The notes beneath the pieces were generated by a model that made no database searches, had not been told where the DNA came from, and worked only from the letters and a program-made list of their open reading frames with translations. This document shows positions 60,870 to 64,000 of a stretch of DNA of 64,000 bases, one piece after another. The stretch covers positions 40,404 through 104,403 of the forward strand of contig CATQIB010000011.1 in NCBI GenBank assembly GCA_958296185.1. The letters run 5' to 3'. Positions within the stretch are counted from its first letter, which is position 1; every line of letters begins with the position of its first letter. Source of the DNA: an uncultured Mesonia sp. GTDB taxonomy: Bacteria > Bacteroidota > Bacteroidia > Flavobacteriales > Flavobacteriaceae. Made by a program: the position numbers and the translations under genes.

Positions 60870-61069
60870 GTATAATATCGCCATAACTTTAATGCTCAAT
60901 TCAAGCTTATTTTTGTTGGTTTGGGCATTTTTTCCTTGACGGAATTAGTTACCCCAATAAAGTCAAAGCCGTACAATCTTATAGTCAAGCCACTTCATAT
61001 TTTTAGCTTGTTCATTATCAGGTTAAACAAAAATCCTTAATTTCGCAATTTATTTTGAAAGACAGCGCC

Positions 61070-63991
61070 ATGAGTAAAAATTTTACCGAATACAAGCAAC
61101 TGGATTTACCAGTAGTAGCACAAGAGATACTGAGCTATTGGAAAGAAAATCAAATTTTTGAAAAAAGTGTAAGTACCAGAGAAGGTAATCGGCCTTTTGT
61201 TTTTTTTGAAGGTCCGCCCTCTGCCAATGGTTTACCAGGGATTCATCACGTTATGGCGCGAAGTATTAAAGATATATTTTGCCGATATAAAACTCAAAAA
61301 GGTTTTCAAGTAAATCGCAAAGCCGGTTGGGATACTCATGGTTTGCCCGTAGAGTTAGGGGTAGAAAAAGAATTGGGTATCACCAAAGAAGATATAGGTT
61401 CTAAAATTTCTGTAGAAGAATATAACCAAGCCTGTAAAAATGCCGTGATGCGCTATACCGATGTTTGGTCAAAACTTACCGAAGAGATGGGCTATTGGGT
61501 AAATATGGATGATCCTTATATTACTTATAAGCCTAAATACATGGAAACCGTTTGGTGGTTACTGTCTGAAATTTACAAAAAAGGACTTATATACAAAGGC
61601 TACACCATTCAACCTTACTCACCAAAAGCAGGAACAGGCTTAAGCTCACACGAGCTAAATCAACCTGGCACCTATCAGGATGTTACCGACACCACGGTAA
61701 CGGCACAGTTTAAAGCTATAGCAAGCAGTCTTCCTGCCGATTTAGCCAACTATGAAAACCTGTACTTTATAGCTTGGACTACCACTCCTTGGACACTCCC
61801 AAGTAACACCGCACTTACAGTAGGTCCAAAAATTGAGTATGTAGTGGTTAAAACCTATAATCAATATACATTTGAGCCAATTAGTTTAGTAGTTGCCAAG
61901 AATTTGGTGAATAAGCAATTTGATAAAAAATATGTTGGCGTTGAAGATGAGGAAGCTTTGGCTAATTTTCAACAAGGAGATAAGAAAATACCTTATTTAA
62001 TAACCAATACTTACCTGGGTAAAGATTTAGTAGGTATTCGTTATGAGCAATTGCTGCCCTATGCACAACCCTATGAAACTCCAGAAAATGCATTTAGAAT
62101 TATTGCAGGTGATTTTGTAACCACAGAAGACGGTACAGGTATTGTACATACCGCACCCACTTTTGGAGCAGATGATGCGCTGGTGGCCAAACAAGCTAAT
62201 CCGCCTGTGCCTCCTATGTTGGTGTTAGATGAGCAAGAGAATTTGGTGCCGTTGGTAGATTTGCAGGGTAAATTTAGACCCGAGATGGGAGAATTGGCAG
62301 GGAAGTATGTAAAAAATGAATACTACATCCCCGAAGAAGCCCCCGACAAGTCAGTTGATGTTGAAATAGCCATTAAGTTAAAAGAAGAAAATAAAGCCTT
62401 TAAGGTAGAAAAGTATGTACACAGTTATCCAAATTGCTGGCGTACAGATAAACCTATATTATATTACCCTCTAGATTCTTGGTTTATAAAGGTAACCGAG
62501 GTAAAAGATCGTATGCACCAATTGAATACTACCATAAATTGGAAGCCCGCCTCGACCGGTGAGGGTAGGTTTGGTAACTGGTTAGCCAATGCCAATGATT
62601 GGAATTTATCGCGATCGAGATATTGGGGTATCCCACTACCTATTTGGCGTACAGAAGATAAGAGAGAGGAGATTATTATTGGTTCTATAGAAGAGTTGAA
62701 AGCCGAAATGAAACGCTCGGTAGAAGCTGGTTTTATGGAAAAAGATGTCTTTGAAGATTTTGTGGTAGGCGATATGAGCGATGCTAATTACGATCAAGTC
62801 GATTTACATAAAAATGTGGTCGATAAAATTGTACTGGTTTCGGCTAGTGGTAAGCCAATGAAACGCGAAGCCGACCTGATAGATGTTTGGTTTGATTCTG
62901 GAGCTATGCCGTATGCCCAATGGCATTACCCGTTCGAAAATAAGCAAGCCACCGAAGCAACACTAAGAAAAGCCGATTTTATTGCCGAAGGGGTAGATCA
63001 AACCCGAGGTTGGTTTTATACCTTGCACGCCATCGCTACCATGGTTTTTGATGATGTAGCCTATAAAAATGTGGTGTCAAATGGTTTGGTATTAGATAAA
63101 CACGGACAAAAAATGTCTAAGCGATTAGGCAATGCTGCCGACCCCTTTGAGACTTTATCTACCTATGGTCCAGATGCCACGCGATGGTATATGATAAGCA
63201 ATGCCAACCCTTGGGATAATTTAAAATTTGACCTCGAAGGTATTGCAGAGGTGCGTCGTAAGTTTTTTGGAACCTTGTACAACACCTATTCTTTTTTCGC
63301 GCTTTATGCTAATATAGACGGGTTTACCTATAAAGAAGAGGAGGTTCCTCTAGCCAAAAGACCCGAAATTGATCGTTGGATATTGTCTGAGCTTAATAGC
63401 TTAATCAAAAATGTAGATACTTATTATGCTAGTTATGAGCCTACCAAGGCTGCTCGCGCAATTTCAGATTTTGTACAAGAAAATTTAAGTAACTGGTACG
63501 TGCGTCTGTGCCGAAGAAGATTCTGGAAAGGTCAATACCAAGAAGATAAAATATCGGCTTACCAAACTTTATATACTTGTTTGTTAAAAGTGGCCCAAAT
63601 AGCGGCACCGATAGCGCCATTTTATATGGACAGACTTTACAAAGATTTAACAGCGGTTTCACTAGCAGATACGCCAGAAAGTGTACATTTAAGCACATTT
63701 CCAGCGTCTGATGCGAGTATGATTAATCAGGCACTTGAAAATAGAATGAAAAAAGCACAAGTAATTTCTAGTTTGGTGTTATCATTAAGAAAGAAAGAAA
63801 TGATAAAGGTAAGGCAGCCACTTCAACGCGTGATGATTCCTGTATTAGACGAGAGCGTTAGAGAAGAAATATTGGCGGTAGAAGACCTGATCAAATCTGA
63901 GGTAAATGTAAAAGAGATTGAATTGATTGATGACACTTCGGGAATATTGGTTAAAAAAATTAAACCTAATTTTAAAAACCCTTGGACCTAA
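61070..63991 (+). CDS. ileS: isoleucine--tRNA ligase; reading frame ends early because of an apparent +1 frameshift at 63974-63978, and the rest lies beyond the window
   Basis: 'PPSANGLPGIHHVMARSIKDIF', 'KHGQKMSKRLGNAADPFETL'; ATG 61070 (MSKNFTEY) in frame with listed 61055; after '...KKIKPNFK' the alternate frame reads TLGPKFGK. Confidence 0.93.
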   Translation: MSKNFTEYKQLDLPVVAQEILSYWKENQIFEKSVSTREGNRPFVFFEGPPSANGLPGIHHVMARSIKDIFCRYKTQKGFQVNRKAGWDTHGLPVELGVEKELGITKEDIGSKISVEEYNQACKNAVMRYTDVWSKLTEEMGYWVNMDDPYITYKPKYMETVWWLLSEIYKKGLIYKGYTIQPYSPKAGTGLSSHELNQPGTYQDVTDTTVTAQFKAIASSLPADLANYENLYFIAWTTTPWTLPSNTALTVGPKIEYVVVKTYNQYTFEPISLVVAKNLVNKQFDKKYVGVEDEEALANFQQGDKKIPYLITNTYLGKDLVGIRYEQLLPYAQPYETPENAFRIIAGDFVTTEDGTGIVHTAPTFGADDALVAKQANPPVPPMLVLDEQENLVPLVDLQGKFRPEMGELAGKYVKNEYYIPEEAPDKSVDVEIAIKLKEENKAFKVEKYVHSYPNCWRTDKPILYYPLDSWFIKVTEVKDRMHQLNTTINWKPASTGEGRFGNWLANANDWNLSRSRYWGIPLPIWRTEDKREEIIIGSIEELKAEMKRSVEAGFMEKDVFEDFVVGDMSDANYDQVDLHKNVVDKIVLVSASGKPMKREADLIDVWFDSGAMPYAQWHYPFENKQATEATLRKADFIAEGVDQTRGWFYTLHAIATMVFDDVAYKNVVSNGLVLDKHGQKMSKRLGNAADPFETLSTYGPDATRWYMISNANPWDNLKFDLEGIAEVRRKFFGTLYNTYSFFALYANIDGFTYKEEEVPLAKRPEIDRWILSELNSLIKNVDTYYASYEPTKAARAISDFVQENLSNWYVRLCRRRFWKGQYQEDKISAYQTLYTCLLKVAQIAAPIAPFYMDRLYKDLTAVSLADTPESVHLSTFPASDASMINQALENRMKKAQVISSLVLSLRKKEMIKVRQPLQRVMIPVLDESVREEILAVEDLIKSEVNVKEIELIDDTSGILVKKIKPNFKNPWT

Positions 63992-64000
63992 ATTTGGAAA

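Follow-up and report, generated by a model that had tools for sequence, protein, structure and literature searches.

Does the isoleucyl-tRNA synthetase gene (ileS) at the 3' end of this DNA really lose its reading frame in the organism, or does the break arise from the assembly? The window, that is, the whole stretch of 64,000 nucleotides that was analysed, corresponds to bases 40404-104403 of contig C11. The assembly to which it belongs (G000) has a size of 2.73 Mb in 29 contigs and is estimated to be 90.44% complete. The coordinates of the features are collected in Table 1.

Table 1. Positions in the window of ileS, the A-run, the early stop and the contig end, together with the other contig ends showing frameshifts.
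Feature	Position	Strand	Basis
5' portion of ileS (class I isoleucyl-tRNA synthetase), 973 aa before the early stop	61070..63991	+	TIGR00392, Pfam, relatives' identity
A5 run with one A more than all in-frame relatives	63974..63978	+	alignment with L008, L009, L037 and others; 109 loci surveyed
TAA stop, due to extra A	63989..63991	+	window sequence; relatives' frame goes on to ~1132 aa
Final base of contig C11 (104403 of 104403); rest of ileS absent from assembly	64000	.	contig coordinates; assembly resumes at C24 end
Contig ends with net frameshift versus G001: C2 5', C8 3', C11 3', C12 5', C12 3', C14 3', C17 3', C25 3'			

We observed that the window ends in ...ATT AAA CCT AAT TTT AAA AAC CCT TGG ACC TAA ATTTGGAAA, where the TAA closes the ileS frame early (...KPNFKNPWT*). 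The A5 run and the stop are thus both present in the sequence, in agreement with the original prediction of a frame break near the 3' end of the gene. Close relatives have A4 at this place, and the stop is reached only via the extra A. Deletion of one A from the run gave KPNFKTLGPKFGK; this is the sequence of the nearest relatives, and the expectation that dropping one A would recover IleS was borne out. When the final 60 bases of the window were aligned with the related genome G001 and with Mesonia sp. HuA40, the additional A was the sole difference, and the homopolymer length of these two relatives (A4 in both) restored the frame, as is expected of a homopolymer error.

The identity of the gene product was clear from profile searches. 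The ORF scored 989.9 bits against TIGR00392 (the ileS equivalog; cut-off 621.4), which places the whole protein in this family, and the Pfam domains tRNA-synt_1 and Anticodon_1 (the catalytic and anticodon-binding domains) were complete. Only profile positions 1-32 of 195 were found for DUF5915 (PF19302), since the contig stops there; in HuA40 this domain is complete (192 of 195 positions). The likely start is the ATG from which the table counts, giving 973 aa, and the 978 aa listed earlier is the count from an upstream TTG at 61055. The original prediction had considered 978 aa short for a Bacteroidota IleS, and the length of the related proteins agrees with this. Both the indel and the contig end account for the shortness, the latter because the remainder of ileS falls into a gap of the assembly.

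We then turned to the corresponding loci of relatives. An IleS match was present in all related genomes (60/60), and 109 IleS loci were surveyed, including a few genomes that were counted twice via two collections (e.g. L009 and L037). The frame was unbroken through the site of the A-run in every one of the 109, and none ended at ...KPNFKNPWT. Their ORFs were of about 1132-1162 aa, except for two that were cut by contig ends. A motif like KPNF(K/R)xLGP(K/R)(F/Y)G was located automatically in 107 of the 109 loci, while the codons at the run varied (AAA, AAG, AGA, AGG, CGG). Among the 80 named loci that were fetched, the best was that of HuA40 (NZ_VRLT01000029.1; L037 = G006), at 98%. Its IleS resembles that of the window, with 98% identity over residues 1-974, but it has A4 rather than A5, and so runs to ~1132 aa with DUF5915 entire. 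The IleS of G001 was also 98% identical to that of the window.

Two of the related loci had peculiarities of their own. The same-genus genome G014 has an ileS (L231:251-4096; G014:C68:70750-74595) with an ORF of 1281 aa and an in-frame insertion bearing a DUF559 domain (residues 662-770, 1.1e-31) inside the catalytic domain. This insertion is flanked by SNSPQGGE and TSPLGGDREG, and it has the look of a mobile coding element inserted in frame into an essential gene; near residue 235 there is also a short stretch with TSPPLEGSG. In G010, ileS is likewise split over two contigs (L232, at the end of G010:C67, and G010:C26:184686-184967), with residues 4-660 on one and 882-975 on the other, another assembly break.

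The extra A lies 22 bases from the end of C11, and what is missing from IleS is a C-terminus of ~155-165 aa (the DUF5915 domain). When the 169-aa C-terminal piece of HuA40 IleS was searched in the window's assembly, no match was found elsewhere, and the DNA for this piece matched only the final 42 bases of C11. The assembly picks up downstream on C24 after 2568 bp (in G001 coordinates), and the matching end of C24 is again a contig end. In G001 this gap is occupied by the ileS remainder and by three further reading frames that were named from sequence alone: one DksA/TraR-like, one lspA-like and one lipoprotein-like. The smallest contig of the assembly is about 18.7-18.8 kb. Since no contig is shorter than ~18.7 kb, the shorter contigs were probably dropped, and with them one carrying the missing ileS piece. 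A contig break at a repeat was not evident, as the 58 contig ends share no 25-mers and have no suffix-prefix overlaps. In G001 (C3:175296 and 175364), only ~70 bp separate the 3' ends of C7 and C16, which indicates that some gaps in the assembly are very short.

We further compared the 300-bp ends of the contigs with G001. Of the 58 ends, 34 could be compared in coding sequence, one was noncoding and 23 had no usable match (some not queried or too divergent). A net frameshift was seen in 8 of the 34 alignable coding ends, chiefly as 1-base homopolymer indels; G001 is only ~95% identical over C11, and a few of these frameshifts could be real pseudogenes. Interior coding tiles of C11 served for comparison: 4 in 304 were flagged, and three or more of the 4 sat at a tile edge or in an intergenic stretch (Fisher's exact p = 1.7e-6; 1.2e-5 with the ileS end left out). 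Across the ~97 kb of C11 that could be aligned to G001, no net frameshift lay inside any ORF other than ileS, and the few flagged frame changes were all at ORF ends; an assembly that is indel-rich throughout was ruled out on this ground. The contig ends are thus enriched for frameshifting homopolymer errors, and the same class of error recurs there, as expected if ileS carries one. Against an error of this kind speaks that, in a set of 18 alignable 3' ends, most had no indel in their final 60 bp.

Other explanations were weighed against these observations. Some bacteria carry two ileS genes, and a second, intact copy elsewhere would make that of the window dispensable; with the assembly at 90.44% completeness, such a copy could sit in a gap. 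However, a search of the genome itself gave only paralogues at 21-30% identity, namely ValRS (NF004349, 1132 bits) and LeuRS (TIGR00396, 907 bits). No second ileS was found in the assembly, so that this alternative of the original prediction, for which the search had been proposed, is now exceedingly improbable. Recoding, its other alternative, fared no better. The frame would be restored if ribosomes shifted by +1 (or -2) in a programmed manner at AAT TTT AAA AAC, and a T and A run before a stop is the sort of composition that some slippery sites have. A gene of this kind is expected to show a frame change conserved in relatives, but this was seen in 0 of the 109 loci: all read straight through, the codons at the site differ between them, and neither a conserved slippery motif nor a shift site was found among them. 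A literature search for ileS with programmed frameshift also found no paper, and we consider recoding scarcely credible.

A real +1-base mutation, either fixed or carried by only some of the sampled population, would truncate IleS after residue 973 and leave almost nothing of the C-terminal DUF5915 domain. The assembly sequence itself does read A5, and A/T homopolymers such as this run are natural slippage sites. However, the assembly is without a second ileS, the relatives keep the C-terminal domain, and the site lies where the assembly has an excess of frameshifts; the mutation would need to coincide with the final 22 bases of a 104-kb contig. We therefore regard a real mutation as very unlikely. 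It is just as unlikely that the strain truly has A5 and either tolerates an IleS without its C-terminal domain or recodes by +1 frameshifting.

A homopolymer error, the explanation favoured in the original prediction, is the best one because the relatives are in frame at all 109 loci, the assembly has no second ileS, and 1-base frameshifts are in excess at contig ends. The extra A is almost certainly an artefact of assembly at the contig end, and not biology. C11 ends within ileS, and the A-run in its final bases would be one letter too long (A5 instead of A4), with errors of this kind at several other ends as well. The wrong call may have arisen because few reads supported the end of the contig, and the extra A would be absent from the DNA of the living cell. 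The ileS of the organism most likely continues in one frame for ~155 further codons beyond the contig end, and would be followed by the DksA/TraR-like gene and then lspA, as in the relatives. The frame break has no biological importance. What it does show is that frame calls at the contig ends of this assembly are not trustworthy, about a quarter of the checkable coding ends having a frameshifting indel in the last 300 bp.

Frameshift errors from homopolymer indels in draft assemblies are addressed, for long reads, in an earlier report (PMC12007338). The ileS case resembles such errors in that a single-base error in length splits a conserved gene. It differs from the general case in that the errors are concentrated at the ends of contigs.
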